From assembly GCA_945875545.1 (NCBI GenBank), contig CAMCKZ010000008.1:1-60142 (forward strand): DNA of 60,142 nt, in the 5' to 3' direction. Each line of letters opens with the position of its first letter. The first letter of the stretch is position 1. Positions 27,635 to 56,374 of this stretch are shown here, piece after piece. The notes beneath the pieces were generated by a model that made no database searches, had not been told where the DNA came from, and was given only the letters and a program-made list of their open reading frames with translations. Source of the DNA: Polyangium aurulentum. GTDB lineage: Bacteria; Myxococcota_A; Polyangia; Polyangiales; Polyangiaceae. The position numbers and the translations under genes were made by a program.

Positions 27635-28084
27635 TCAAAGTTTCGCCAAAAAACGACGAAGCAATTTGCGGTCCAATGCGGGGGCCGGCGGTTCCACTTG
27701 CACGAGGAGCGCGAGGGTCTCTCCGTGGCGGCGCAGGGCCATGCGCACGGCCCCAAATGTGCTTTGCGCGGGATCGAAAATCGCGACGACCATGCCTTCA
27801 CCGAGGGGCCTAAGAAACGCGTGGGTGCCCGCGCCCTCAACGAATATCCCCTCCAAACGAGCTTCGCCCGCCGCGCGTAAGAGACCCGACCCCGCCTCGA
27901 TCAGGGCCTCGCTCGCCGCCGCTACGACGCCGTTTTCGAAGCTGGCACTGCTGCCCCCACCGGTCGCGGGGGCGCTCGCGCGAACCGTGCCCGCCGGGTC
28001 TACGAGAAAAATGGCGACGAGCGGCAACGCGCTGCGAATCTCTTCGAGCAGCGCCGTTGCAGGGTGAAAATCGTCGCCGTTCAT
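27635..28084 (-). CDS. Roadblock/LC7-like small protein
   Basis: 149 residues from the ATG at 28084, which overlaps the stop of the HD-GYP gene (ATGA). Alternation of beta strands and helices is that of the Roadblock/LC7 fold: VAIFLVDPAGTV (about 25-36), a middle helix VVAAASEALIEA, then THAFLRPLGEGMVVAIFD and GAVRMALRRHGE. In myxobacteria such proteins (MglB) regulate Ras-like GTPases that set polarity. No GTPase is adjacent; the coupled partner is instead a cyclic-di-GMP-type HD-GYP protein, an uncommon pairing. The C-terminal 25 residues are basic and Pro-rich. Confidence 0.65.
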   Translation of the reverse strand: MNGDDFHPATALLEEIRSALPLVAIFLVDPAGTVRASAPATGGGSSASFENGVVAAASEALIEAGSGLLRAAGEARLEGIFVEGAGTHAFLRPLGEGMVVAIFDPAQSTFGAVRMALRRHGETLALLVQVEPPAPALDRKLLRRFLAKL

Positions 28085-30003
28085 CGAAGCTGTGGACCGG
28101 TTTTCGAGGGGATCAGTGAACCGCCGTCGACGTCGAGTTCGAAACAACCCTTGGTCACGAAACGGTCGACGAGGACCGGATCCAAGTGGCCCTCGCGGCC
28201 ATTTGCCATGAGAATTGCCAGGGCTTCGTCGCGGCCCAGGGCGCGCTTGTAGGGGCGGTCGGCGGCGGTGAGGGCGTCGTAGACGTCGGCGACGGCCATG
28301 ATGCGCGAGGGCAGCGGAATGGCCTCTCCTGCGAGGCCATGGGGGTAGCCTTTGCCGTCCATGCGCTCGTGGTGGGCGCCGGCGATGAGGGGCACCCGTT
28401 CGAGGTCGCGGCTCCAGGGGATGCGCGAGAGAAAGCGAATGGAGTGGGTGACGTGGGAGCGAATTTCGGCGACCTCGGAGCGGGTCAGAGAACCTCGCGG
28501 AACCTCGAGGGCAAGCTGCTCGTCGGGCGAGATGAGCGAGCGCGCTTCTCCCCGCGCGTCGGTCCACCGAAAAGCTGAAATCGCAGCCAATTCACTGGCC
28601 GCGGACGCAGGGAGCACCGACGGCTCGTTGGCCCGAAGGACGACATTCAACCAGTGGTCGAGGCGCTTTTCAGCGTCGGCCAGGGTGCCGAGACAGGCCG
28701 TTGCCCGAGACGGATCGCGGAGAGCTTCTTCGAGGGCCATGACCCTGTTCTGCAGCTGCGCGTTTTCAAATCGGAGCCGCACCACCGCGAGTTGTTCGTC
28801 GTAAAGTTTCTTGGCCTTGACGAGCACGCGCTCGCGGACGCCTATCTTTCCGAAGTCGTGCATGAGGCTCGCGTACTCAAGTTCGCGAAGGGCTTGCGTG
28901 TCGAACGGGGCCATCGCAAGGGCCGTCGTCGAAGCGATGTTGACCTGGCGCGCGAGGGAAAGCGTGTATTGTGCAACACGAAGAGAATGGCCGCTCGTGG
29001 TGGGATCGCGCGACTCGATGGCGTCGATGGAGGCCCGCACAAAGCCTGCGAAGAGATGGTGGATCTCCTCGTAAAGCATGGCATTTTCCAGGGCAAAGCC
29101 CGCCTGCTGCGAGAGCATTTGCACCAAGTCTTGGTCGCGCCGATCGAACGAGCGGACCAGCCTCGGCATGTTTTCCGACGTGAGGCACGCGCTCCAATCG
29201 CGCTTGCGGTTGATCAGTTGGACGACGCCCAGAACCTCATCGCGCCGGGAGATCAGCGGCACGACCAGCATGGAGGTTGTGCGGTAACCGGCACGCTCAT
29301 CGAAGGAGGGATCGTAGCCAAAAGACTCGTGGGCACCGATGCTGCGCACGTCGTCGATGACGATGATTCTCCGCTCGGCCGCCGCAGCCCCCGCGATACT
29401 TCCGTGGCCAAAGGGGATGAGAAACTCGCTCGCAGGAAAGCGCACCGAATCGTTCTGGGTAAGCTTAAAGCGCAGGAAACGCTCGGATCCCTGACGCTCT
29501 GTGACGTAAATACTGCCGGCGTCGCTCTCGGTGAGCTGGCGCGCGTTCGTCAAAATAAGGGCGAGCAGCGTTTGCAAGTCGCGCTCCTGCGACATGGCCA
29601 AACTCGTGGTCAAAAGCGAATCGCGATCGTGGACGGCTTGCTTCGCGCGCGCTCTCTCGACGTCGGCGAGGCGATGGGCTTGAAGGACCTCGAAGTTCGC
29701 ACCGATCGCCATGCTCACGTCCGCGATGCGGGCGTCTGGCCGCAGCAAAGCGGCCACCCCCGGTGGGCACGAAGGCTCCTCCGCGCCAATCAGCAGAACG
29801 CGCGCAGTGCCGTTTTCAACACGCGGTCCCAGGGAGCCCGCAATCTGCGACCAGTCTTCGCGGGAGCTGTCCACGAGAAAGACCACAAGATCCCCGCGGT
29901 AAAATCCGAGGGCCCCCTCGTGAGCGAGGGCACCCGTGATGCCCTCCAAAAGGATGTACTCTGCAAGCATCCCCAGGAGCGAGCCAAAAGGGATGCCACT
30001 CAT
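28081..30003 (-). CDS. GAF/HD-GYP protein with a large insertion in the HD-GYP domain
   Basis: 640 residues from the ATG at 30003; the frame stays open to 30252 but that extension crosses the AT-rich promoter region. Residues 1-130 are an uncharacterised N-terminal domain, about 140-300 a GAF sensor (TESDAGSIYVTER, then SMLVVPLISRRDEVLGVVQLINRK), about 320-640 the HD-GYP domain. The metal pair is in HDFGKIGVRE (H382, D383) and the distal motif is HHERMDGKGYP (H544, H545; GYP at 552-554), followed by ADVYDALTAADRPYK. About 160 residues separate HD from HH, far more than the usual about 55-60, owing to a coiled-coil-like insert. The family hydrolyses cyclic di-GMP; with this insert activity needs proof. 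Coupled to the Roadblock gene. Confidence 0.82.
   Translation of the reverse strand: MSGIPFGSLLGMLAEYILLEGITGALAHEGALGFYRGDLVVFLVDSSREDWSQIAGSLGPRVENGTARVLLIGAEEPSCPPGVAALLRPDARIADVSMAIGANFEVLQAHRLADVERARAKQAVHDRDSLLTTSLAMSQERDLQTLLALILTNARQLTESDAGSIYVTERQGSERFLRFKLTQNDSVRFPASEFLIPFGHGSIAGAAAAERRIIVIDDVRSIGAHESFGYDPSFDERAGYRTTSMLVVPLISRRDEVLGVVQLINRKRDWSACLTSENMPRLVRSFDRRDQDLVQMLSQQAGFALENAMLYEEIHHLFAGFVRASIDAIESRDPTTSGHSLRVAQYTLSLARQVNIASTTALAMAPFDTQALRELEYASLMHDFGKIGVRERVLVKAKKLYDEQLAVVRLRFENAQLQNRVMALEEALRDPSRATACLGTLADAEKRLDHWLNVVLRANEPSVLPASAASELAAISAFRWTDARGEARSLISPDEQLALEVPRGSLTRSEVAEIRSHVTHSIRFLSRIPWSRDLERVPLIAGAHHERMDGKGYPHGLAGEAIPLPSRIMAVADVYDALTAADRPYKRALGRDEALAILMANGREGHLDPVLVDRFVTKGCFELDVDGGSLIPSKTGPQLR
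28965..28975. repeat. TGYA-N3-TRCA element
   Basis: TGTATTGTGCA in the HD-GYP gene, read on the coding strand as Val-Ala-Gln-Tyr-Thr. Confidence 0.5.
29955..29965. repeat. TGYA-N3-TRCA element
   Basis: TGTACTCTGCA near the start of the HD-GYP gene, read on the coding strand as Leu-Ala-Glu-Tyr-Ile. Confidence 0.5.
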
Positions 30004-30096
30004 GGCGCCGGAAGCTACCACGGCAGTCGCGTGTAGCCGTCTGTTTTCATCCGCGGCGGACCTCGGTGTGCCAGCGTCGCGGGAGCCAAAAATACG

Positions 30097-30190
30097 CAGC
30101 CTAGTATTAGAAAGCCCGAATACAGTTATGAACGCTATATCGGGTGTTTCGTGGTTATAAATAATTGATATTATACATGAAATAAGCATC
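30097..30190. promoter_or_regulatory. AT-rich divergent promoter region
   Basis: An abrupt low-GC patch in the 235-base gap between the HD-GYP gene and the ferredoxin-reductase gene. On the minus strand it contains a perfect TATAAT (30175-30170). On the plus strand TATAAA and TATTAT (30169-30174) occur about 65 bases before the reductase start. No strong -35 element is paired with either, so an activator may be needed, for which the MerR protein encoded in the plus-strand operon is a candidate. Confidence 0.5.
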
Positions 30191-30238
30191 TGCAAAGTGA
30201 TGCTTGACAACGGCTGCCGGTGTTGCCAAGGTTTGCTT

Positions 30239-31522
30239 ATGGGAGTCTCCACGGATAATTTTCGCTCTTGGGTTCCGCGGCCGGTGCTCGAGCAGGCTCG
30301 GGCAACTCTTCAAGATATTGCCCACATCGCGGCCTGTTTTCGCGGCGAGGGGCCTCCGCCTTTTCAGGCGCGCGGTGCCTCTGCGCCTTCGCCGGGCCCC
30401 GTACCCGTACCCGTACCCGTACCCGTACCCGTACCCGTGCGCGCGGCCTCGGCGGTCATCACGCGCCGCCTCCGGGTGCTTTCGTCGGAGCTTTGCACGC
30501 CATCGGCGCTGGCCATCGCGTTTGAAACGGAAGACGGGCAGCCGCTCGGCGCTGACGCGGGGCAGTTTCTCACGGTGCACTGGCCGTTGAACGGCGTCGT
30601 CGAAAAGCGCGCGTACTCGTTGGCGTCGCGCGCCGACGACGGAACACGGGGTCGCCTCGTGGTGAAGGGCGCGGCGGGGGGCCGCGTGTCAGCGTCGCTG
30701 GTGGCGCGGGCGGGCGAGCTTCGCCATCTCGAGGTCACCGGGCCCTCGGGTCATTTCGTGCTCGACGTGCGAAGCCGGAGGCACGTGTTTCTTGCGGCGG
30801 GCAGCGGCATTACGCCCATCGCGAGCATGCTGCTGACCCACGTTCCGCTCCGCAAACAAGACACGTTCACCCTCGTCTACGGAAGCACGTCGCCGGAAGA
30901 AACCATCCTGCGCCGCGAGCTCTTGGACTTGGCCAACGAGTTTCCCGAGAGGTTCAGCATCCGCTGGGCCTTCGACCAAAACGCCAACCACTTTCGCTCG
31001 GTGCCGCCGCCCTTTTCGGGGGCGCTCGGCGGCGACCTTCTTACGGAAATTCTTCGCACGCAGCCCGTCATCGACCTCCACGACGCGGCCGTTTACCTCT
31101 GCGGCCCGAGCCCCATGATGAAGGCGGCCCAGGCGGTGCTCGATGGGGCAAACGTGCCGCCGGCGCGCATTCGAACCGAGCGTTTCGCGAGCCCCGGCAG
31201 TCGCAACGTCGGGCCCCAAAACGCGGTGGCGGGTGCGGTGGGCTCTGTGCGGCGGGTGGCTTTGCGCGTGATCCTAGACGGAAAAACGCAGGAGATCATC
31301 GCATCCACCGCACAAACAATTTTGGAGGCCGGGCTCGGGGCGGGCTTGCCCATGCCCTACTCGTGTTCCATGGGCGGGTGCGCTTCGTGTAGAGTGCATG
31401 TAACGTCGGGAATGGCCGTCATGGAGGAGCCGAACTGCCTCGAGGCGGAGGAGCAGCGGCAAGGCTATGTACTTGCATGTTGCACGCGTCCCACGAGCGA
31501 TCTCACCGTGGAGGTCTCATGA
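30239..31522 (+). CDS. FAD/NAD(P)H oxidoreductase fused to a plant-type [2Fe-2S] ferredoxin
   Basis: 427 residues from the ATG at 30239. After about 70 residues with a Pro-Val repeat linker comes the ferredoxin-reductase fold: FAD-binding RAYSLAS, then NAD(P)-binding LAAGSGITPIASML and the CGPSPMM motif. The last 90 residues are a ferredoxin domain with YSCSMGGCASCRVHV and a final Cys in YVLACC, giving the CX4CX2C...C cluster. This domain order is that of PaaE-like and monooxygenase/desaturase reductases, passing electrons from NAD(P)H to an oxygenase. The diiron protein in the same operon is the obvious acceptor. It overlaps the MerR gene by four bases. Confidence 0.9.
   Translation: MGVSTDNFRSWVPRPVLEQARATLQDIAHIAACFRGEGPPPFQARGASAPSPGPVPVPVPVPVPVPVRAASAVITRRLRVLSSELCTPSALAIAFETEDGQPLGADAGQFLTVHWPLNGVVEKRAYSLASRADDGTRGRLVVKGAAGGRVSASLVARAGELRHLEVTGPSGHFVLDVRSRRHVFLAAGSGITPIASMLLTHVPLRKQDTFTLVYGSTSPEETILRRELLDLANEFPERFSIRWAFDQNANHFRSVPPPFSGALGGDLLTEILRTQPVIDLHDAAVYLCGPSPMMKAAQAVLDGANVPPARIRTERFASPGSRNVGPQNAVAGAVGSVRRVALRVILDGKTQEIIASTAQTILEAGLGAGLPMPYSCSMGGCASCRVHVTSGMAVMEEPNCLEAEEQRQGYVLACCTRPTSDLTVEVS
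30398..30439 (+). repeat. Hexanucleotide microsatellite (CCCGTA)7 in a coding region
   Basis: Seven CCCGTA units (the last ends GTG) encode seven Pro-Val pairs in the linker between the N-terminal segment and the FAD domain of the reductase. The unit is six bases, so copy changes alter linker length without breaking the frame. Confidence 0.9.
31388..31398. repeat. TGYA-N3-TRCA element
   Basis: TGTAGAGTGCA lies over the second and third Cys codons of the ferredoxin cluster motif (Cys-Arg-Val-His), 86 bases before an exact copy. Confidence 0.5.
31474..31484. repeat. TGCA-N3-TGCA element
   Basis: TGCATGTTGCA lies over the last Cys ligand region of the ferredoxin domain (Leu-Ala-Cys-Cys-Thr). 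Confidence 0.7.
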
Positions 31523-43465: not shown

Positions 43466-43499
43466 CAGCGGCGTCGATGCCGCTGAAAAGGGCGCTAGT
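43466..43499. repeat. Hairpin plus 17-base repeat shared with 12184-12200
   Basis: CAGCGGC (43466-43472) pairs with GCCGCTG (43479-43485) over a six-base loop. It partly overlaps CTGAAAAGGGCGCTAGT (43483-43499), identical to 12184-12200. Both copies cover the 3' end and stop codon of an unrelated minus-strand gene. Possibly a terminator-like or regulatory 3' element. Confidence 0.5.
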
Positions 43500-46400
43500 C
43501 GTCGAACATCGCGTGCAGCCCCGAGGGGCTTTGGGCGGAGTGGGATGGTGGAACCGAGGGAAACCACACGCGAAAGCTCGCTCCGCCGAGGTCAGCGCTC
43601 GTCTCGATGGAGATGCGGCCGCCGTGCTGGTGAACGATCTTGGAGGTGATCGCCAAGCCGAGGCCCGTGCCTTTGCCGGCTGGTTTGGTGGTAAAAAAAG
43701 GTTCAAGAATTTTGGATCGAATCGCCTTGGGCACGCCTCCGCCGTCGTCGTCGACGCACAGCTCGATGCCGGCGACGCCGCCCGAATCGGCGTCGTGAAG
43801 TTCAATTTGCACCTGGCCGCACGACTCAAAGCCCTGCGCCTCGCGACGCTCGTGGAGAGCATCGATGGCGTTTCCGACGAGGTTCATGATGACCTGGCCG
43901 ACGTGACTGCGATGGCACGTGATGGGTGAAGCTTTTGAAGCCGACAGGGTGAGGCGGATTCCTTGGGCCTTTCCCTCGAGAATCACGAGAGCTTCGCGTG
44001 CCACTTCGTGGATGTTTGTGTCGGGGGTGGCCACGTCGTCGAGGCGACTGTAGTTGCGCATCGCTTGGCTGATTTCGCGGATCTTTTCGCACCCCGTTTC
44101 GACGTCGTTCAGGTGCTCGCGCAGGCGCTCAAAGTGGACCTGCACAGCCTCTCCTGGGCACTTTTCTTCGAGGTCCATGCACTCGAGGTTCATGAGCTGC
44201 GCGCTGCCCGAAATGTAGTTCAACGGATTGCCAATTTCGTGCGCGATACCCGATACCTGCTGCCCCAAAGACGCCATCTTTTCGGCCTGAACGAGCTGCT
44301 TTGTGGCTTCGTCGAGTTCCGCCGCCAAGGCCTGGCGCTCCCGCGCGATGGCGTCGAGGTTCGTACGGGCCGATGCATTCTGCAACAAAAGATGCTCGTT
44401 CGTTCCTTGCAGCCGGATACGCTCCGCAAGCTCGGTCGCGAGGCGCCGGGTTTGCCGTGTAACGGTCAAGTGATGGGCGACGCGCGCCTCGAGCTCAATG
44501 CGCGAAAACGGCTTGGTGATGTAGTCGTTCGCTCCCCATTTGAACCCCTCCGCAAGGTCGCGTTCCTGCGTTTTTGCGGTCAAAAGAAGAATGGGCAACA
44601 TCTCCTTGTTGTGGGTTTTTCGGACGTCGGAGAGCACTTCGTAGCCGCTCTTGCCTGGCATCATCACGTCCAAGAGAACGATGTCGGGAAGGGTGCCGTT
44701 GGCCATCTTTTCGACCGCCTCGATGCCGTCGTCGGCGGTGTCGACGGAGTATCCGCGCTGGGTGAGCAGCTGCACCAGGAGTTCGCGGTTGATGTACTCG
44801 TCGTCGACCACGAGAACATGGCCCTTGGTGGCCCCCTCGGCGGCTTCCGGCGGCGCGGCAGCCCCGAGGGCCTGGTCGGGAACAGAGCGCAGCACGAGGG
44901 ACGGTGGACGCTCGGAATTGGCCCTCTGGGAGTCGACCGACGCGGCACGGGCCGGGGGCGCGAACGACGGCAGTTTCGCTCCGACCAGTGGCTTGGTAGG
45001 GGCCGGCGACTGGAGTGCCGTCGCGGCGGGCATCGACACCGACTCGGGATTGAGATTGGACGACGGCAACACAACGACGAAGCGCGAGCCCTTTCCGATC
45101 TCGGATTCGACGGATATTTCGCCGCCGTGGGCCGCCACGAGTTGCCGCGTGACCGCAAGGCCGAGGCCCGTGCCGCCGTACTTGCGCGCGGTGCTGCCGT
45201 CGCCCTGTTCGAAGGACTCAAAAATGCGACCGATGGCTTGCGGCGAGATGCCAATGCCCGTGTCTGTTACCGTGATAGTTACGGTATTTTCTCCCTCAAA
45301 TGCCTCGATGGTCACCGCGCCGGATTCCGTGAATTTTATGGCGTTTCCGACCAAGTTCAGCAAGATCTGCTGAACCCGGTTGGCGTCGCCGTAGACGGGC
45401 TGGAGCTGCGACGACACGAGACTTGTGACCGTGAGCGCCTTCTTGCCCACCATGGTGCTCGCGAGGCCAATAACGGTCGTCACGATGGGCGCCAAATCGG
45501 TGCGCGTGCGTTGAAGAATCAGCTCATTTTTCTTGAGCTTCGAAAAGTCGAGGATGTCGTTGACGAGGCTCGCGAGACGCCGACCGCTGGACGCGATCAT
45601 GCGCAAGTTGCCCTTGGCCCGACCGTCGAACTGGGGCTCTTCTTCGAGCATTTCCGCGAGGCCGATGATGCCATTCAGCGGCGTGCGCAGCTCGTGCGAG
45701 GTGTTCGCCAGGAAGTCGTCTTTGAGGACGTTCATGCGCTCTTGCTCGGCGAGAGCTTGGAGCGTGGCTTGGTGCGTGAGCTTTTCTTGGCGGGCCACCT
45801 CGACCTGCAAAAAATTGATGCGGTCCGCGAGGCCGAAAGAGAGCAGCACCATCTGGCAGCAGGCACCCACGATGGCGGCGTAGTTCGTAAAGCCATTTTG
45901 CGGCAACGCGCCGCGGGTCATGAGGCTTGTGGTCGCTATGCCAACGAGGAATGCCGACCAGGCAATCAAGAAAAATTTGGCAGGGCGAAAGCCGCGGCGC
46001 GAAAGAAGCGCGCCGATGGTGATGAGGTAAATCGCCCAGATCGGAAGCGCAGCCGTCGCGAGGCTAGCCGCGACGCGGTACCCGCCGAACACGTGCGACA
46101 GCGGCGCCAACAATAGCACAAATGCCGTCAGCTTGCCGGCTTCGTAGAGACGGGGAAATTCGCTGTACAAGCCCGCGGCGCCGGACCTCGGACTCAAGAA
46201 CCGAATGGAGAACCAGAGGCCCACGGACATGGTGGGGAAGATGGCGTTGGGGATAAAGACATTCGCGAACGCAGGGTGCTCTGGGTAGAGATAAAAACTC
46301 GCGAAGCCGCGGATGGCGAGGTCTCCGGTGACGTAAAAAGCGATGAGAAGAACGTAACGCAAGAAGTTGGCGTCGCCCGTGCTCGCAAAGACAAATAGGT

Positions 46401-47163
46401 TGTACAATACAATGAGTAGACCGAAGCCCGCGAAGATACCGAGGAGCGTTCGCTCGTGGGCCTCGGCCTCCACGTACGTGGTCGCGGTGTACAGGGTCGA
46501 AAACAGCCGCGTGGCGCTCTCGGTGCGCACGCGAACGTAGGCTACGGCGTCGCCCTTTTGCGGGATGAAACGGAACCCGAGCTCGTGGGTCTTCACGGGC
46601 CGCAGGGAAAGCGGGAGGCGATCGCCGGACTCGGCGGTGACGGTCGTGCCGTCGGGTTGGTGCAGAGTGAGCGTGAGGTGGTCGAGACTTGCGTAGTGAA
46701 AAATCAGGAAAAGAGGCTCGATCGATGCGGACTCGACGTGCAGCCCGAAGCGAACCCACACCGTTCCGTCGTGAAAACCGAGGTTGAGATTGGGGTCGTT
46801 GGCGTCGGTGAAAAGCGAGTCGTCGAGATCGGCGACGTTGTCCGACCCTTTGCCTCCCGGGGGCACCAATTGCATCTGAAAATGACTGGACGCATTTTCG
46901 GATTCGAACGCCTCTCCGACAGCGATCGTGTTGCGCTCAGGCAGCGCGCTGGCCGGCCGTGCGAACGCAAAAACGAGGAGCGCGAGCTTTGCCGCGAGCG
47001 CCACCCAAGATCGCCATCGGATCTGTGGCACCACGGCAACGTTCTTTCGCAAACGGCAGGTAATCACTTCATTGATGGAAAGCGGCACGGTCGCGGAAAG
47101 ACTTAATGGCCTTCCCTCGGGGGGACGTTTCCTCCGTCGGGCGCTGTGGCCGTTGCAAGTCAT
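43495..47163 (-). CDS. DISM sensor with two kinase modules and a receiver
   Basis: 1222 residues if translation starts at the ATG at 47163; GTG starts at 47088 or 47067 give a better-placed signal segment. Domains in order: signal/membrane segment, DISMED2 (about 75-215), seven-helix DISM (about 225-415), a short coiled coil, HisKA with [12 protein letters not shown] (H490), ATPase with [12 protein letters not shown] and DTGIGISPQ, receiver with [15 protein letters not shown] (D832), a coiled coil, then a second HisKA-like module with [12 protein letters not shown] (H975) and a second ATPase ([31 protein letters not shown]). The second one is of the NtrB/HWE-like NPLNY type. No output domain, so phosphate must go to another protein. 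27 bases separate it from divergent serS. Confidence 0.9.
44374..44384. repeat. TGCA-N3-TGCA element
   Basis: TGCATTCTGCA in the sensor gene, read on the coding strand as Leu-Gln-Asn-Ala. Confidence 0.75.
46401..46411. repeat. TGTA-N3-TACA, doubly relaxed element
   Basis: TGTACAATACA in the DISM membrane segment of the sensor gene (Val-Leu-Tyr-Asn). Confidence 0.45.
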
Positions 47164-47190
47164 TGAAGGCTCGGGCACGGTGCGCGCGCC

Positions 47191-48465
47191 ATGCTCGATA
47201 TCGCTTTTATCCGCCAGAATCAGGACGCCGTGCGCGCCGCGATCGTGAACAAACGCTGCGATGTGGACCTCGATGAGCTCCTCCAAGCGGATCAGGAGCG
47301 CCGCGAAGCGCTGCAAGGCCTCGAGGCGCAGCGCGGGAAGAAGAATCAGCTTGCGGCGCAGATTCCCAAGGTTCCGAAAGAGGAAAAAGCTGCGCTTATC
47401 GACGAGGCCAAAGGGGTGCGCGCAGCCATCGAGCGCTTGGAACCCGGGTTGGCGGTGATTCAGGCCCGCTTCGATGACCTGATGCTCCGCGTTCCGTCGC
47501 TGCCGCGTCCCGAGGTTCCCGTTGGAAAAGGTGAGGCCGACAACGTCGAAGTGCGCAAGGTTGGAACGCCGCGCACCTTCGACTTCGCGCCAAAGGATCA
47601 CGTAGAGCTCATGAGCAGTTTGGGGCTCATCGACTGGGACGGGCCGCGGGGTTTCGCCGGCGGTCGATCCTACGCGCTCAAGGGCGATGGAGCTTTGCTG
47701 GAGCTTGCGGTCACCCGGTTGGCCGTCGATATTTTGCGCGCGCGCGGGCTTGAACTCGTGTTGCCGCCGGTCATCGTTCGGGAGACGGCCCTCGTGGGAA
47801 CGGGCTTTTTTCCGCTCGGCAAAGAAGAAACGTACGCCATCCCCGCCGACGATCTTTTCCTCGTGGGCACGAGCGAAGTGGCTCTGGTGTCGCTGCACGC
47901 GGGCCAAATCCTTGACGCCGCGAAGCTGCCAATTCGCTACGCGGGGCTGTCACCGTGTTTTCGCCGCGAAGCCGGTGCTCACGGAAAAGACACGCGAGGC
48001 GTGTACCGGGTTCATCAATTTACCAAAGTGGAACAGGTCGTGTTTTGCCTTCCCGACGAGGAAATTGCCGAGCGCGAACACTACCAGCTCCTCGCGAACG
48101 CCGAGGCTATTTTGGAAGCGCTGGAGATTCCATACCGCGTATGCCTTGCGTGTACGGGGGAAATTGGCCTCGGCCAAACGCGAAAACACGAGGTGGAATC
48201 GTGGATGTCGGGTCGCCAAGCGTACGCGGAAACCCACTCGTGCTCGACCCTCGGTGACTTTCAAGCCCGGCGATCAAACGTGCGCGTGCGCCAGCCCGAT
48301 GGCTCTCTCGCCTTCGCGTATACCCTCAACAACACGGCCATCGCGAGCCCGCGGATCCTGATTCCGCTCCTCGAAAATCATCAGAACTCCGATGGCTCCG
48401 TGACGCTGCCAAAACGCCTCGTCCCGTACATGAGCGGTATCGAGACTTTGCGCCCGCGCGGCTGA
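47191..48465 (+). CDS. serS: Seryl-tRNA synthetase
   Basis: 424 residues, full length. Residues 1-110 are the tRNA-binding coiled coil (MLDIAFIRQNQDAVRAAI start). The class II core follows: motif 2 region SPCFRREAGAHGKDTRGVYRVHQFTKVEQVVF (positions about 253-284) and motif 3 near the end, SDGSVTLPKRLVPY. Charges tRNA(Ser) in the cytoplasm. The 27-base spacing to the divergent sensor kinase leaves little room for two promoters. A long minus-strand ORF across this gene is an antisense shadow. Confidence 0.96.
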   Translation: MLDIAFIRQNQDAVRAAIVNKRCDVDLDELLQADQERREALQGLEAQRGKKNQLAAQIPKVPKEEKAALIDEAKGVRAAIERLEPGLAVIQARFDDLMLRVPSLPRPEVPVGKGEADNVEVRKVGTPRTFDFAPKDHVELMSSLGLIDWDGPRGFAGGRSYALKGDGALLELAVTRLAVDILRARGLELVLPPVIVRETALVGTGFFPLGKEETYAIPADDLFLVGTSEVALVSLHAGQILDAAKLPIRYAGLSPCFRREAGAHGKDTRGVYRVHQFTKVEQVVFCLPDEEIAEREHYQLLANAEAILEALEIPYRVCLACTGEIGLGQTRKHEVESWMSGRQAYAETHSCSTLGDFQARRSNVRVRQPDGSLAFAYTLNNTAIASPRILIPLLENHQNSDGSVTLPKRLVPYMSGIETLRPRG

Positions 48466-50389: not shown

Positions 50390-50435
50390 CGCCACGCGTC
50401 CACGGATGCGGCGCTTCAGATAGGACCCGAAAGAA

Positions 50436-52460
50436 TTGCAGCAGACTGCTCACAGCATCAAGCGAATCATCGACCATCTGGAGCGCGACCGCCTTCTCAC
50501 CGCGGGCCAGACGGCGGCTGCGATGGCCCATCATCAGCGCAGCGGAATCCGCATCGAAGAGGCTATTTTGGAGCTCTCGTTGATCGAAGAAGGCCTCCTT
50601 CTTCGATCATTGGCGTCGCTTTATCACACCAAGTTTGTGGGCACCGAGCGCCTCGCAAACCTCAACCTGGATGCCTCGCTGACCTCCCTCGTTCCGCGAA
50701 AATACGCTGACCAATACAACGTATGCCCCGTGAGTTACGACGGCGATCGCGGCCTGCTCGGAGTCGTGACCCCCGACGCCGATAGCGCCGAGGTCGTCGA
50801 TGGCGTGCGCTTGTCGTCTTCGGCCCGGGAGGTGCGTGTATTTGTCGTAAGACCAGCCGCAGCCAAGGCCATGATAGCGCGCCTTTACAGCGGTGATCCC
50901 CACGCCTTTGCATTGCTCGAACGCGAGACGTTTTCCAGGTCCGCAGAGGTATCGCTGGGCAGCCCGCCCGGCGACTCGTTGCGCCCCGGTTCTGGCGAGC
51001 GCGCGTCGGTGCCTCCGCCCACGGAGCCCGTTCATTCCGCCAACCGGCGCCGTTTGTCGGAGCGCCCCGGGGGCACATTCGGCAGCTCCCCGACGCTCAG
51101 TGCCCTTGGTTCGTTCGGTTCCATGCCGGGCACAAACCCGACCGCGAACCTCGTGCCCGGTCCCCGCACCACAGACGCCCTCCGCGAGTCGATTGCGCGA
51201 CTCCTCGGCTTCTTGTCTGCGCGCGACAACCTGAATCAGGCGGCTCACCCCCATCACACAGCCCGCATCGCGAAGAGACTGGCGGAGCGCCTCGTGGCCC
51301 CGCAAGCAACGGTGCAAGCCGTTGAACTTGCAGCGTTTATTCACGACCTAGGCAAGTCCAGTGCCGGCCACCTGTCTACGTTCAACGTGGCACAATATGC
51401 AGAATACACGTTGATCGCGCGGCATGCGTACGCCAATCCGGTGCGCTTGTTTGAGGGGGCCAAGCTGCCTCTGGAGGTTGTCGCCGCGTTGCAGCACATG
51501 TACGAGCGGGTCGATGGCAAGGGTTTTCCCCTCGGGCAAAGGGGCCGTGAGATTCCGCTGGCCGCGCGCATTCTCGCGGTCGCCGATGCCTACGCGGATC
51601 TGACCGAAAGCTCCGAAAACGCGTATCGCCGCCGGCTCTCGACGGAAGAGGCTTCCGGCGTCATCGTGTCCTTGTCCGACACGATTTTTGATCCCACGGT
51701 GGTCGAGGCCCTTACGCGGGCGCTGATTTCGGGGCCCTCGCGCGCCGCGATGTCTCCCCCGTGGGACGATTTGCTGATCGTGGAGTCGTCGGCGGACGAC
51801 GCCTTTCTTCTTCGCGCCGCCGCCCTCGACGCGGGCTTTCTCCCAGCGATCGTCCACACGAGCGACGCGGCCCGCGCCGCTTTGAGCGCCGCGCGTTACG
51901 CTCTTCTCATCGTCAATACCGACGACGACCCGTGGTCCCTTCTCCAGGATTTGAAAGCCGGCCTCCTCGGCGAATCCATCCCATTTGGAGTCGTGGGCCG
52001 GTCTTTGGAGCGCTCGGTCATCGAGCGACTGACGCCCATGGGCCCCATCGATATCGCGCCGAAAGCGTTGGCACCGGCCGCTTTGTTTGAGCGAATGAGG
52101 CAAGCGCTTGATCCGATTCGCACCCGTGGCGTGGCGGCCATTCGTGGAAAACTCCAAGATGTCGAGCTCCCAGACGTCCTCCAGTCGCTGATTCAGGGGC
52201 GGCAAACCGGGCGACTCGTGGTGCGCAGCGCGGGGGGGGTCGGCGAAATTCACTTCAGTCTCGGGGCCATCGTCGGAGGCTTTTTCGGCGAGCGGCTGGC
52301 CGAAGAGGCGGTCGTAGCCCTTGTCCGATTGCGCGAGGGCGAGTTTGCGTTCGACGGAAGTTTCAAGCCGGGTCCGTCGCGCATCAAGACGCCGACCGAG
52401 ATGCTTCTCCTCGATGCCATGCGCCGCATCGACGACCAGTCGCTAAGGCCGCGGTCCTAA
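50436..52460 (+). CDS. MshEN, HD-GYP, pseudo-receiver and DUF4388 fusion protein
   Basis: 674 residues from a TTG start at 50436. Residues about 5-150 look like the MshEN/GspE N-terminal domain, known in some ATPases to bind cyclic di-GMP. About 250-410 is an HD-GYP domain with HTARIAKRLAERL, FIHDLGKSS (H303, D304), and HMYERVDGKGFP (H354). The GYP has become GFP. About 440-550 is receiver-like, but the phosphoacceptor position reads N in LLIVNTDDDP, so it is probably a pseudo-receiver. About 570-665 is DUF4388 (LPDVLQSLIQGRQTGRLVV), a myxobacterial signalling domain. So one chain may both bind and degrade cyclic di-GMP. Preceded by a good promoter. Confidence 0.82.
   Translation: MQQTAHSIKRIIDHLERDRLLTAGQTAAAMAHHQRSGIRIEEAILELSLIEEGLLLRSLASLYHTKFVGTERLANLNLDASLTSLVPRKYADQYNVCPVSYDGDRGLLGVVTPDADSAEVVDGVRLSSSAREVRVFVVRPAAAKAMIARLYSGDPHAFALLERETFSRSAEVSLGSPPGDSLRPGSGERASVPPPTEPVHSANRRRLSERPGGTFGSSPTLSALGSFGSMPGTNPTANLVPGPRTTDALRESIARLLGFLSARDNLNQAAHPHHTARIAKRLAERLVAPQATVQAVELAAFIHDLGKSSAGHLSTFNVAQYAEYTLIARHAYANPVRLFEGAKLPLEVVAALQHMYERVDGKGFPLGQRGREIPLAARILAVADAYADLTESSENAYRRRLSTEEASGVIVSLSDTIFDPTVVEALTRALISGPSRAAMSPPWDDLLIVESSADDAFLLRAAALDAGFLPAIVHTSDAARAALSAARYALLIVNTDDDPWSLLQDLKAGLLGESIPFGVVGRSLERSVIERLTPMGPIDIAPKALAPAALFERMRQALDPIRTRGVAAIRGKLQDVELPDVLQSLIQGRQTGRLVVRSAGGVGEIHFSLGAIVGGFFGERLAEEAVVALVRLREGEFAFDGSFKPGPSRIKTPTEMLLLDAMRRIDDQSLRPRS
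51398..51408. repeat. TGYA-N3-TRCA element
   Basis: TGCAGAATACA in the MshEN/HD-GYP gene, read as Tyr-Ala-Glu-Tyr-Thr. Confidence 0.5.
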
Positions 52461-52909: not shown

Positions 52910-55900
52910 CTAACGCTGTCCGCGTAGCGTCACCCGACCGGGAAACGTCAGGGTAAACCGAGCGCCGCCGAGCGAGGGCGAGCGATCCACGACGAGGGAG
53001 CCCTGATGCTCCTCGGCAATTCGCGTGCAGATTGCAAGCCCAAGGCCGGTGCCGCGTCCGGCGGCTTTCGTCGTGAAAAACGGTTTCATGATCGCCGCGA
53101 TCGACTGCTCCGGAATGCCGGGCCCGTCGTCTTCCACGCAAATGATGACGCCCGTGTCGTCGTCGGTCAGGGCCGTGCTGAGGCGGATAACCCCTTGATC
53201 GGGCGTCGTGCCGCGAACGACGCCTTCAAGCGCATCTGCGGCGTTTACCACGAGATTAAGCACGACCTGCCCGATGTGACTTCGGTGGCAACTGATTGGC
53301 GAGGTGACGCCGAAATCGGTCTGGAGTTCGAAGGGCCGCGTGCGAGCGCCGACGATCACGAGGGCCTCCGCGATGACCGTGGAGAGGTTCACGTGGTCGG
53401 TGCGTTCGTCGTCGGTGCGGCCGTAATTTCGCATGGCCCGCGTGACTTCCGACAGCCGATGCACGCCGTCGGTGATGACGCTGAGAAACCGATCAATGTC
53501 GTTCATTGGCCCCGCCACAGCTGCGTTCGTGGCCGCCGCAAGATCGCCGGTCAAGGCGCTGCGAATGGTGAGCATGCGTCGCTCGCACACGGCCACAGCG
53601 CCGCCTACGTAGTTCAGGGGGTTGTCGATTTCGTGGGCCACGCTCGTCACCATTTGACCGAGGGACGCCATTTTTTCTGCCTGAATCAGTTGGCGCTGTG
53701 CCTCTACGCGTTCGATTTCCAGTGCCCGTTTTACTCCGCGCACCGCTTCGAGTTCCGTCGTCGCGTGGCCGTGTTTTTCGCGAAGCATCTCCACGGCCCC
53801 TTCGAGGCGAAGTCGCTCGTCGAGTTCCCGTTCAATGCGCGCGCGCGCTTCGAGATTTTCCATGGAAAAGCGGCGAAGCGACATGTGATGACCAATGCGC
53901 ACGAGGAGCTCTTCGCGCGTAAAGGGTTTCGTCAGGTAGTCGCTCGCGCCGTGGCGAAACCCGTCGACGATGTCGTTTTCGCGCGCGAGAGCGGTGAGAA
54001 GAACCACGGGCAATTCGGTCGACGTGCGAAGGGGCCGAATGCGATCGAGGACATCGAAGCCGCTGATCTCGGGCATCATCACATCGAGAAGAACGAGGGC
54101 CGGGCAGTCGTCGGAAAGAATGCGCGCGATGGCCGCCGCGCCGCTGTCGCACTCGTCGACGGAGAGGCCTGCGCGCGAAATCTGTTGCGTGAGCACATGC
54201 CGGTTGATGGCGTCGTCGTCGACCACCAAGATGGTCTCCGCCCGCGGGTTCGGAGCGCGCGGAGTGAGGGGCGCGGCGCTCGGCACGGGGCCGATGGAGG
54301 CCGCGGCAACGGCTCGCGGCGGGGTCGCGATCGGTGCAGCGGTCACGATGGCCGTTGAGGCCAGCGCCTCCAGGTCAAAGCCGAACACCGAGCCGACGCC
54401 GGCGCGATGCTCGTAGGTCATTGTTCCGCCGTGCGCAGCCGCGAGCTGGCGAGCGATCGCGAGGCCGAGGCCACTGCCCTGGCGCGCCAAATGCACTTCC
54501 GAATCGCCCTGATTAAAGGGCTCAAAAATCGATGAACGCGCGTCGTTAGGCACGCCGGGCCCCGAGTCGAGCACCTCGACAAAAATGCGACCGTCCTTGC
54601 GGTGCGCTTGCACATCGACGAAACCCGCGGCGGTAAACTTGAGCGCGTTGCCCACGAGGTTGTGGAGGATCTGCTGCACCCGTCCCTCGTCGATAGACAC
54701 GACAAAATCGGGCGGTACTTGGGAAGTGAGCGCGAGTCCTTTGCGCAGGGCTTCGGGCCGCTGGAGATCCAAGACAAAGGTCACGCACTTCGCGAGCGAC
54801 GAGGGGCGGCGCTCCATCACAATGTCCGCGTGGCGTAGGCGCGCGTAATCGAGAATGTCATTCACGAGGGCGCTCAGACGCCGACCGCTCTCCACGATGA
54901 TCCGCAAATTCCTGTCCACGCGCGGAGGAAGCGGACCTCCCGAGCCGTCGAGGAGCGCGTCTGCGAGCCCCAAAATGCCATGAATCGGCGTGCGAAGTTC
55001 GTGCGAAGTCGTGGCCAGAAAGATGTCTTTGAGGTGGTCTAGTCTCTTGATTTCATTAGTTATTTTAGACTGCTCGTCGATTTGGTTCTTGGCCAGTTCG
55101 AGGGCGACCTGGCCGCTGCGAAGGGCCTCCTCTCGAAGGAGCCGCACGCGCTCGCCAAGGCCGCTGCTCAAGATGAGGGCATGAAACGCGCCGCCCAAAA
55201 ACGGCGCCTGCTGGAAGAACGCCACTGGAGGAATAAATCCGCGAATCATCCCGATGTACGTCACATTCGCGATGGCGAGCGCGAGAGTGGCAAGCAAGTA
55301 GTTCGACGGAAAAAAATCGCCCTTGGCCCGAAGGCTTCGCATGAACGCAAAAAATCCGAGGAGGAGGAGCAGCGCGAGCCCGAGGGCGGGCGCGGACACG
55401 GCTACATCGAGTTTGCGAACGGACCACGGCACCACCAGGCCCCACGCCGTGAGCGTCCACACCATGCCCCCCAGAAACCGGTCAATGCGGGGAAAAGCAT
55501 CTTTCACGCCCACGTATCGCCGCCCAAATTCGATGTTGCTCGCTACGGCAAGCGCACTAAATCCGTTGACCGCGCCGTCGACGAACCAGGTGGCGTCTGT
55601 CACCAACGAGAGACTGCCGGACATGCCAAGCCCCATCAACACCTGGCCACAGACGCTTGCAGCATACACCAAAAAGATTCGGTCCCGCGTGCCGTAGAAA
55701 AGCGTGATGTTGTAGATGGCCAGGGCCAGTAGAAAGCCCGTGAGCAGAAGGAGTGCGCCGATACTGACCACCGTGGAGGAGACAAAGCCGGCGGCGTCGC
55801 ACAGCTGAAATCGCAGTAAAATCGCTGATAGCGTGCGCACCTCCACGACGAACTCGCGCGCCTCGCCCGGGGCAAGATGGAGGGCAAACGCGGGCCCCAG

Positions 55901-56374
55901 GGAAAAGGGCACCGGCCGTGCAGCGCGTGGAACATGGTCACCGCTGCGCTGCGCTCGCCACCGGTCGCCAACGTGTTCGTAAAGATTGACGTGGTCGGGG
56001 AGTCCGTGGCTTTGAACAAGGAAGAGCGTTTGGTGTGCCGACGTGGCGTTGCGCACGGTGCCGTGCAGCCAATAAGTTTCGTCGCCGAGGCTGGCGCGCC
56101 GGCTGATGCCGTGGGTCGCGAGAGGTTCGAACGAATCGAGCTGGCCAAGAATATTCTCGAGCGGGAGCTCAGCGCCGGGAACGCGGAGTACCCCGAGCGA
56201 TTGGGTCGCCGACAGGTCGTTTACGGAACCGTCGTAGACGAGCTCTTGCGCCTGCGACACGCTCGTGAAAAACACGCAGGAGAGCACAATGGCAAGTAGG
56301 CTCCAAGCGCGCGCGCGAAGTCTTTGGGCCAGCGAAGTCAGCTCTCGACAGAGGGTGTTCCGTGTCATCCGCAT
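52910..56374 (-). CDS. DISM sensor with two kinase modules and a receiver
   Basis: 1154 residues from the ATG at 56374. The same order as the protein at 43495: signal/membrane helix (about 20-42), DISMED2, seven-helix DISM (about 190-385), HisKA with [13 protein letters not shown] (H458), ATPase with LVGNALKFTAAG, receiver with LLDVMMPEISGFDVL (D764), second HisKA-like with SVAHEIDNPLNY (H914) and second ATPase with LNLVVNAADALEG and DGPGIPEQ. It is clearly a paralogue, sharing motifs in both kinase halves. 93 bases separate it from divergent glmS. Thioesterase gene follows closely. Confidence 0.9.
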   Translation of the reverse strand: MRMTRNTLCRELTSLAQRLRARAWSLLAIVLSCVFFTSVSQAQELVYDGSVNDLSATQSLGVLRVPGAELPLENILGQLDSFEPLATHGISRRASLGDETYWLHGTVRNATSAHQTLFLVQSHGLPDHVNLYEHVGDRWRAQRSGDHVPRAARPVPFSLGPAFALHLAPGEAREFVVEVRTLSAILLRFQLCDAAGFVSSTVVSIGALLLLTGFLLALAIYNITLFYGTRDRIFLVYAASVCGQVLMGLGMSGSLSLVTDATWFVDGAVNGFSALAVASNIEFGRRYVGVKDAFPRIDRFLGGMVWTLTAWGLVVPWSVRKLDVAVSAPALGLALLLLLGFFAFMRSLRAKGDFFPSNYLLATLALAIANVTYIGMIRGFIPPVAFFQQAPFLGGAFHALILSSGLGERVRLLREEALRSGQVALELAKNQIDEQSKITNEIKRLDHLKDIFLATTSHELRTPIHGILGLADALLDGSGGPLPPRVDRNLRIIVESGRRLSALVNDILDYARLRHADIVMERRPSSLAKCVTFVLDLQRPEALRKGLALTSQVPPDFVVSIDEGRVQQILHNLVGNALKFTAAGFVDVQAHRKDGRIFVEVLDSGPGVPNDARSSIFEPFNQGDSEVHLARQGSGLGLAIARQLAAAHGGTMTYEHRAGVGSVFGFDLEALASTAIVTAAPIATPPRAVAAASIGPVPSAAPLTPRAPNPRAETILVVDDDAINRHVLTQQISRAGLSVDECDSGAAAIARILSDDCPALVLLDVMMPEISGFDVLDRIRPLRTSTELPVVLLTALARENDIVDGFRHGASDYLTKPFTREELLVRIGHHMSLRRFSMENLEARARIERELDERLRLEGAVEMLREKHGHATTELEAVRGVKRALEIERVEAQRQLIQAEKMASLGQMVTSVAHEIDNPLNYVGGAVAVCERRMLTIRSALTGDLAAATNAAVAGPMNDIDRFLSVITDGVHRLSEVTRAMRNYGRTDDERTDHVNLSTVIAEALVIVGARTRPFELQTDFGVTSPISCHRSHIGQVVLNLVVNAADALEGVVRGTTPDQGVIRLSTALTDDDTGVIICVEDDGPGIPEQSIAAIMKPFFTTKAAGRGTGLGLAICTRIAEEHQGSLVVDRSPSLGGARFTLTFPGRVTLRGQR
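53026..53036. repeat. TGCA-N3-TGCA element
   Basis: TGCAGATTGCA in the sensor kinase gene, near its 3' end, read on the coding strand as Ala-Ile-Cys-Thr. Confidence 0.7.
55658..55668. repeat. TGYA-N3-TRCA element
   Basis: TGCAGCATACA in the DISM membrane part of the sensor gene (Val-Tyr-Ala-Ala-Ser). Confidence 0.5.

Follow-up and report, generated by a model that had tools for sequence, protein, structure and literature searches.

A MshEN–HD–receiver–DUF4388 protein of Polyangium aurulentum as a possible pseudo-enzyme regulator connected with type IVa pili

A stretch of Polyangium aurulentum DNA, 60,142 nucleotides in length and referred to here as the window, encodes a protein that raises a simple question: does it sense and hydrolyse c-di-GMP, as the names of its domains would suggest, or do these domains serve another purpose? 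Taken alone, the names imply a c-di-GMP receptor joined to a phosphodiesterase. Both labels look wrong, and the following sections consider what remains of them and what the protein may do instead.

Architecture, family and precedents

The open reading frame occupies positions 50436–52460 of the forward strand and comprises 674 codons before the stop, beginning with TTG. The sequence AGGA at 50422..50425 (+), 10 bases upstream of this start, is a possible ribosome-binding site. Relatives with the same parts support the whole frame. Pfam recognizes three domains above their cut-offs in the 674-aa product: MshEN (PF05157; residues 72–154, 34.7 bits versus 23.1), HD_5 (residues 274–422, 70.5 versus 27.2) and DUF4388 (residues 571–668, 66.7 versus 25). 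The order along the chain is MshEN, a disordered linker, an HD domain of the HD-GYP fold, a receiver fold and DUF4388. A sequence-only reading had proposed such a fusion in a single chain, and the four domains and their order were borne out by Pfam, by the family profile and by structure matches, including the assignment of the N-terminal part to the MshEN fold. Foldseek and VIA likewise match parts of the chain to the N-terminal domains of MshE and PilF, to HD-GYP proteins and to receivers. The AlphaFold model of the full chain has a mean pLDDT of 85.8 and a pTM of 0.42, with a low-confidence linker (residues 175–239, 50958..51152 (+), pLDDT under 50); the packing of the domains is therefore not defined by the model.

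A protein search across 377 genomes of the phylum returned full-length relatives mostly from the same order. The alignment consists of 69 relatives and the window protein (70 rows), with two partial HD hits from its own genome (L002, L003) and a duplicate (L033) left out. Two reduced sets, A1 with 61 rows and A2 with 47, omit 9 and 23 of the 70 rows, respectively, as near copies, as partial sequences or to limit size. MshEN (at E<=0.01), HD_5 and DUF4388 are all matched in 61 of 61 A1 members, so the architecture is not a product of chance. Response_reg is matched in 59 of these 61, and the window protein itself is among those without a match. Additionally, L033 was considered as a further close relative in the genome contigs and set aside, being the sole locus there and apparently the same contig as L004, with the same score.

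The family is widespread in the order. A match at E<=1e-40 occurs in 160 of 183 genomes, and in 96 of the 111 good ones, defined by a completeness of 90% or more and a contamination of 5% or less. Nine genomes of the order have two such matches and the rest have one, which makes the gene mostly single-copy. In the tree, members follow taxonomic families only roughly, and the window protein lies with a 61%-identical congener on a long branch. A short form of the family, a 485-aa frame that matches MshEN and HD but has no receiver or DUF4388, was also seen in both sampled genomes of one genus (G032:C281 and G316:C710).

The pairing of MshEN with HD-GYP or REC is not new. MshEN joined to REC, HD-GYP and other domains was noted in 2016 (PMC5013675), and MXAN_2807 of Myxococcus xanthus, a protein of 661 aa (PMC4877007), was reported as HD-GYP plus MshEN (PMC8844925). 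Compared by description only, MXAN_2807 is almost as long as the window protein and has two of its four domains. The exact four-part chain appears in no title or abstract listed in the literature searches, and DUF4388 as a word occurs in one paper of the literature searched. In other words, the combination was rightly called unfamiliar as a four-part chain at the level of titles and abstracts, while two of its pairings were already in print.

The MshEN motif and the HD pocket

The MshEN domain covers residues about 8–154 (50457..50897 (+)), as indicated by Pfam, by profile matches to PilF and PilB and by Foldseek matches to PDB 9g1w and 5htl. In Vibrio cholerae MshE, c-di-GMP is reported to be bound by two 24-residue motifs of the form RLGxx...Q (PMC5013675). 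The corresponding place in the window protein, residues 10–62 (50463..50621 (+)), is degenerate. Its R10 and R39 are 29 residues apart, exactly the spacing of the V. cholerae protein, but both RLG glycines are replaced (by I12 and E41), as are both glutamines (by H33 and L62). The same losses run through the family: among the 65 of 70 rows with letters at all 14 positions, motif I retains its third-position glycine in 6 and its last glutamine in 3, and motif II retains them in 2 and 1, respectively. The glutamate at position 41 is itself conserved, in 59 of 70 members. The sequence therefore does not show the c-di-GMP binding that had been ascribed to this domain.

The NCBIfam model of the c-di-GMP motif, NF053729, points in the same direction. 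With a cut-off of 38 bits, it gives the window protein 14.2 bits and five other members from the order 12.6–28.0, all five under the cut-off. Of three other MshEN proteins of the same genome, scored as controls, two do pass, namely PilB (41.4 bits) and a 287-aa protein (56.7 bits); for the third, GspE-like one (L097), NF053729 is absent among the 25 of 37 families listed. Seven family members were scored singly with this model, five falling below the cut-off and two above it. The two that pass are L072 (49.2 bits) and L073 (60.4 bits), both from outside the class. Judged in this way, the motif is degenerate in the window protein and in each of the five further members scored from the order, while the two outliers have it. 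Depending on where the tree is rooted, a forebear of the family may have bound c-di-GMP through its MshEN domain. Since L072 and L073 keep the motif, the change of role becomes testable by comparison.

Among known systems, the N-terminal domains of PilB, PilF and MshE (5htl, 9g1w) share the fold, the 29-residue arginine spacing and a Pfam MshEN match above cut-off with the window protein, which differs from them in its replaced motif residues, in the missed NF053729 cut-off and in having no ATPase behind the domain. A PilB-like ATPase was considered and rejected: the chain has no ATPase part, and TIGR02538 reaches 23.5 bits against a cut-off of 675.65, on the N-terminal part only. In its motif loss the domain resembles the non-binding XpsE and PilF GSPII-A. 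Changes in such a motif are reported to have cost XpsE its c-di-GMP binding (PMC5013675), and for PilF GSPII-A binding is described as depending both on Arg, Gln and Gly positions and on further features of the domain (PMC12002112).

The own-genome 287-aa protein mentioned above (L098:1315-2175 (+), contig C85) is a small MshEN protein with a near-perfect c-di-GMP motif, and its locus also holds a frame resembling, by eye, a Ser/Thr kinase.

The HD part, a stalk helix followed by the HD domain (residues 246–434, 51171..51737 (+)), was folded on its own because the VIA table for the whole model consisted mostly of receivers. The resulting AF2 model has a pLDDT of 92.4 and adopts the HD-GYP fold, with VIA Z scores of 19.8 for DvhD (9rbz), 18.1 for both V-cGAP3 (5z7c) and PmGH (4mcw), 17.3 for PA4781 (4r8z) and 14.9–17.1 for Bd1817 entries, other proteins scoring 11.1 or less. 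The window protein shares with PmGH and PA4781 this fold, the equivalents of PmGH H189, H221, D222 and D305, and a DGxG(F/Y)P loop. The HD pair itself, H303-D304 (51342..51347 (+)), is present in 70 and 67 of 70 members, respectively.

The metal ligands of PmGH are given as E185, H189, H221, D222, H250, H276, H277 and D305, and their alanine mutants essentially abolished activity, except for E185 and D305, where it was reduced (PMC4159591). Only four of these eight ligands are kept in the window protein (H271, H303, D304, D384). PmGH H276-H277 align, in the profile alignment, with M355-Y356 in the stretch HMYERVDGKGFP (residues 354–365, 51495..51530 (+)), where the canonical HH has become MY and GYP has become GFP. 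Position 355 is Met in 45 of the 70 members, Leu in 14, Arg in 9, and Gln and Val in one each; position 356 is Tyr in 63, Phe in 6 and His in 1. PmGH H250 aligns with position 331. Histidine is thus found at the places of H250, H276 and H277 in 0, 0 and 1 of 70 members. The equivalent of E185 is Asp or Glu in 57 of 70 members, but not in the window protein.

The GFP in place of GYP had been read correctly (F364 in the window protein, Phe in 53 of 70 members). It counts for less than it may seem, because the GYP alanine mutants of PmGH are reported to have kept most of their activity (PMC4159591). The replacement of HH by MY before E-x-x-D-G-x-G-F-P is the more telling change.

These results bear directly on the proposal that MshEN senses c-di-GMP and the HD domain destroys it. 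The domain names speak for such an enzyme, and so do L072 and L073, which pass the c-di-GMP motif model. Against it stand the failed motif of the window protein and the replacement of H250, H276 and H277, each of which was essential in PmGH (PMC4159591). In L072 and L073, moreover, LF and VY, respectively, stand in place of HH, and L072 has HN for HD. An active enzyme of this kind was rejected on the combined loss of the MshEN motif and the HD metal ligands, and the model is highly improbable.

The alignment nevertheless shows a pocket that has changed rather than decayed, with residues that stay under selection: H271 is kept in all 70 members, H303 in 70, D304 in 67, H312 in 69, E357 in 70 and D388 in 68. 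The place of D384 is Asp in 44 and Glu in 25. K307 is kept in 61 of 70, and H312 is specific to the family. Additionally, histidine occurs at position 324 in 56 of 70 members (Tyr in the window protein) and at position 354 in 44 of 70 (present in the window protein); lying near the lost ligand places, these residues could bind metal in another geometry.

One unlikely reading of this pattern is that the domain remains a working hydrolase with another substrate, in which the H-HD-D set would hold one or two metals, as in HD-superfamily nucleotidases, with the family's own histidines helping. The conserved ligands and the further kept residues just listed are consistent with it, and HD enzymes with a mononuclear centre are reported to act on phosphomonoesters (PMC4159591). 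The glutamate found at the D384 place in 25 of 70 members argues against it, and so do the structural comparisons, in which HD-GYP proteins come closest and other HD hydrolases reach Z scores of about 8–11.

A somewhat less doubtful alternative is that the HD domain is a receptor for c-di-GMP (or cGAMP), binding without hydrolysis and transmitting the signal through the stalk helix. The model for this is DvhD of Desulfovibrio vulgaris, in which SQ stands in place of HD and Met-Asn in place of HH; it is described as binding c-di-GMP without hydrolysing it (PMC13090378). Among the chains compared, DvhD is the top match of the HD model both by Foldseek (4.4e-8) and by VIA (rmsd 2.8 over 173 aligned residues), and it shares with the window protein the lost HH and the stalk helix in front. 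Seven of the eight c-di-GMP contacts of its canonical site could be mapped through the profile alignment, with numbers counted by hand: K582 (K307) and Y652 (Y397) are kept, and L577 (I302), Y621 (F364) and M646 (L389) have similar residues. The genome also holds 10 GGDEF matches. On the other side, R650 and E668 are lost, replaced by N395 (Asn in 65 of 70) and L413, and the changes at Y621 and M646 also weaken the case. The window protein keeps HD where DvhD has SQ, so the two may not share a metal state; V-cGAP3 and PmGH, moreover, come next in the ranking, at Z 18.1. The remaining architecture is different as well, with MshEN, receiver and DUF4388 here and periplasmic dCache and cytosolic PAS parts in DvhD. 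Such a receptor would be compatible with the explanation favoured below, in which the protein is a pseudo-enzyme.

The window also encodes a GAF and HD-GYP protein at 28081-30252 (-) with an intact canonical HHERMDGKGYP and, by eye, an insertion of about 100 residues between its HD and HH motifs.

Receiver, DUF4388 and the link to type IVa pili

The receiver region (residues 443–566, 51762..52133 (+)) escapes Pfam when the single window sequence is searched, but a search with the family profile matches this region to PleD and to receivers of the CheY type. The model shows a receiver fold, its best ten VIA rows having Z scores of 18.7–19.1 and rmsd values of 1.4–2.4. The phospho-Asp had been noted as missing, and this is correct: the site is N494 in the window protein, Glu in 68 of 70 members and Asp in the congener L004. 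In the window receiver the Thr is lost as well, and the acidic pair in part (E450, S452, G521), K543 being kept; the domain does not qualify as phosphorylatable. The C-terminal domain (residues 568–668, 52137..52439 (+), Pfam PF14332) is an ordinary DUF4388, which we take to be the PATAN domain.

In Synechocystis, PATAN regulators are reported to bind PilB (PMC10519157, PMC7690835), and in M. xanthus two PATAN proteins are among ten reported to co-occur with SgmX, a regulator of type IVa pili (T4aP) (PMC11580455). The same source describes FrzS as a pseudo-receiver regulator of T4aP. The window protein has DUF4388/PATAN and a receiver in one chain in common with the PATAN-CheY regulators PixG, PixE and LsiR of Synechocystis; it differs from them in the reversed order, with the receiver first, in the lost phosphorylation residues and in the added MshEN and HD domains. 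To our knowledge, the binding of PATAN to PilB is known only from cyanobacteria.

Because of these precedents from Synechocystis and M. xanthus, the presence of the family was compared with that of T4aP over the same 183 genomes, scored by PilM (PF11104) and PilB. Among the 111 good genomes, PilM is absent in G463–G465 and represented only by a weak paralogue (E about 2e-13 to 3e-13) in G036 and G022. The best PilB matches in these five, at E 1e-145 to 1e-153, were read as below the cut-off, for which the own GspE-like protein, with 565.9 bits at 1e-169, served as a gauge. The family (E<=1e-40) is absent in 5 of 5 T4aP-less good genomes and in 10 of the 106 others (p 2.3e-5 by Fisher's test, with each genome taken as independent). 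This value overstates the link, because the five fall into no more than three lineages: three of them belong to one genus, and each of the other two stands alone. When all 15 good genomes without the family were searched more loosely, the five T4aP-less ones gave nothing that matched the N-terminal MshEN part of the query. G437 and G378 are also good genomes whose PilB stays below the cut-off (E 1e-141 to 1e-153), but their PilM is strong; they were counted as T4aP-positive, and both carry the family. When PilB alone is scored, the family is absent in 5 of 7 and 10 of 104 (p 4e-4). The ten T4aP-positive good genomes without a full match comprise, by the looser search, two with the 485-aa MshEN-HD form, one with a partial form and seven with none.

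The GAF and HD-GYP protein of the window served as a single control. At E<=1e-40 it is matched in 129 of the order's 183 genomes. Among the good ones it is missing from 2 of the 5 without T4aP and from 26 of the 106 others (p 0.60), and G463–G465 keep it. Altogether, the absence of the family from genomes that lack the pilus machinery, in three lineages and with one control, is no more than suggestive of a link to T4aP.

The explanation favoured here, tentatively and with a little less than even confidence, is a cytosolic pseudo-enzyme regulator built from former c-di-GMP parts and working in a pathway that is relevant only where type IVa pili exist. The protein would act as a scaffold. Its MshEN part may be used for docking, much as the PilB N-terminal domain is, and its DUF4388/PATAN part may contact the pilus motor in the manner of the Synechocystis PATAN regulators. 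The glutamate-bearing receiver would be fixed in a single state, whereas the altered pocket of the HD domain would bind a ligand, possibly a cyclic dinucleotide, without hydrolysis, thereby rearranging the chain. That the protein touches PilB directly is a guess. A more specific version of this regulator, rather doubtful as a whole, would be an undescribed and widespread T4aP regulator of the order in which a decoy of the PilB N-domain is combined with a motor-binding PATAN domain and gated by a non-hydrolysing HD-GYP pocket.

Several observations speak against a role in pili. The gene has no fixed neighbour, ten T4aP-positive good genomes are without a full family match, and two with a weak PilB carry the family. 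Single mutation of 21 genes other than dmxA, sgmT and tmoK, MXAN_2807 included according to the strain list, is reported to have left growth and motility unchanged in M. xanthus (PMC4877007). If MXAN_2807 is a relative, its single deletion without an effect on growth or motility counts against the pilus reading.

The genomic surroundings give room for a regulator unconnected with pili, for example one linked to growth, with the T4aP pattern arising by chance over three lineages. In five regions (L085, L089, L092, L093, L094) the gene follows two long frames resembling rpoB and rpoC, and in three it stands beside frames resembling rplM and uvrB, all judged by eye; the wide presence of the family in the order is also in keeping with such a role. 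Neighbours differ between genomes, however, so the rpoC synteny may be local, and the control protein displays no T4aP link. This alternative is improbable, to about the same degree as a hydrolase with another substrate. An operon partner was sought and rejected. Across 20 regions and the window, with neighbours clustered and some of them named by eye, none keeps a fixed place, and the commonest neighbour cluster (14 of 21), itself a loose single-linkage one, varies in place and strand. A pilus gene may still lie close by in some of the genomes.

If the more specific version, with its PilB decoy and gated PATAN domain, is true, a receptor domain and a hydrolase domain of c-di-GMP signalling would both have left their classic roles, while strong selection would still maintain them for the control of pili. 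Should the pilus link hold, the family would offer a mostly single-copy handle on pilus control in this order, and it would test for an action of PATAN domains on pilus motors beyond the cyanobacteria.

The neighbours tested in the window itself are a uridine-kinase-like protein, a thioesterase-like protein and two hybrid kinases. The latter two, at 43495-47907 (-) and 52910-56374 (-), are similar to each other and lie near the gene, one on either side of it, in the reverse orientation. Both contain 7TMR-DISM, HisKA, two HATPase stretches and a receiver, and the start of the frame at 43495-47907 (-) was probably called too long.
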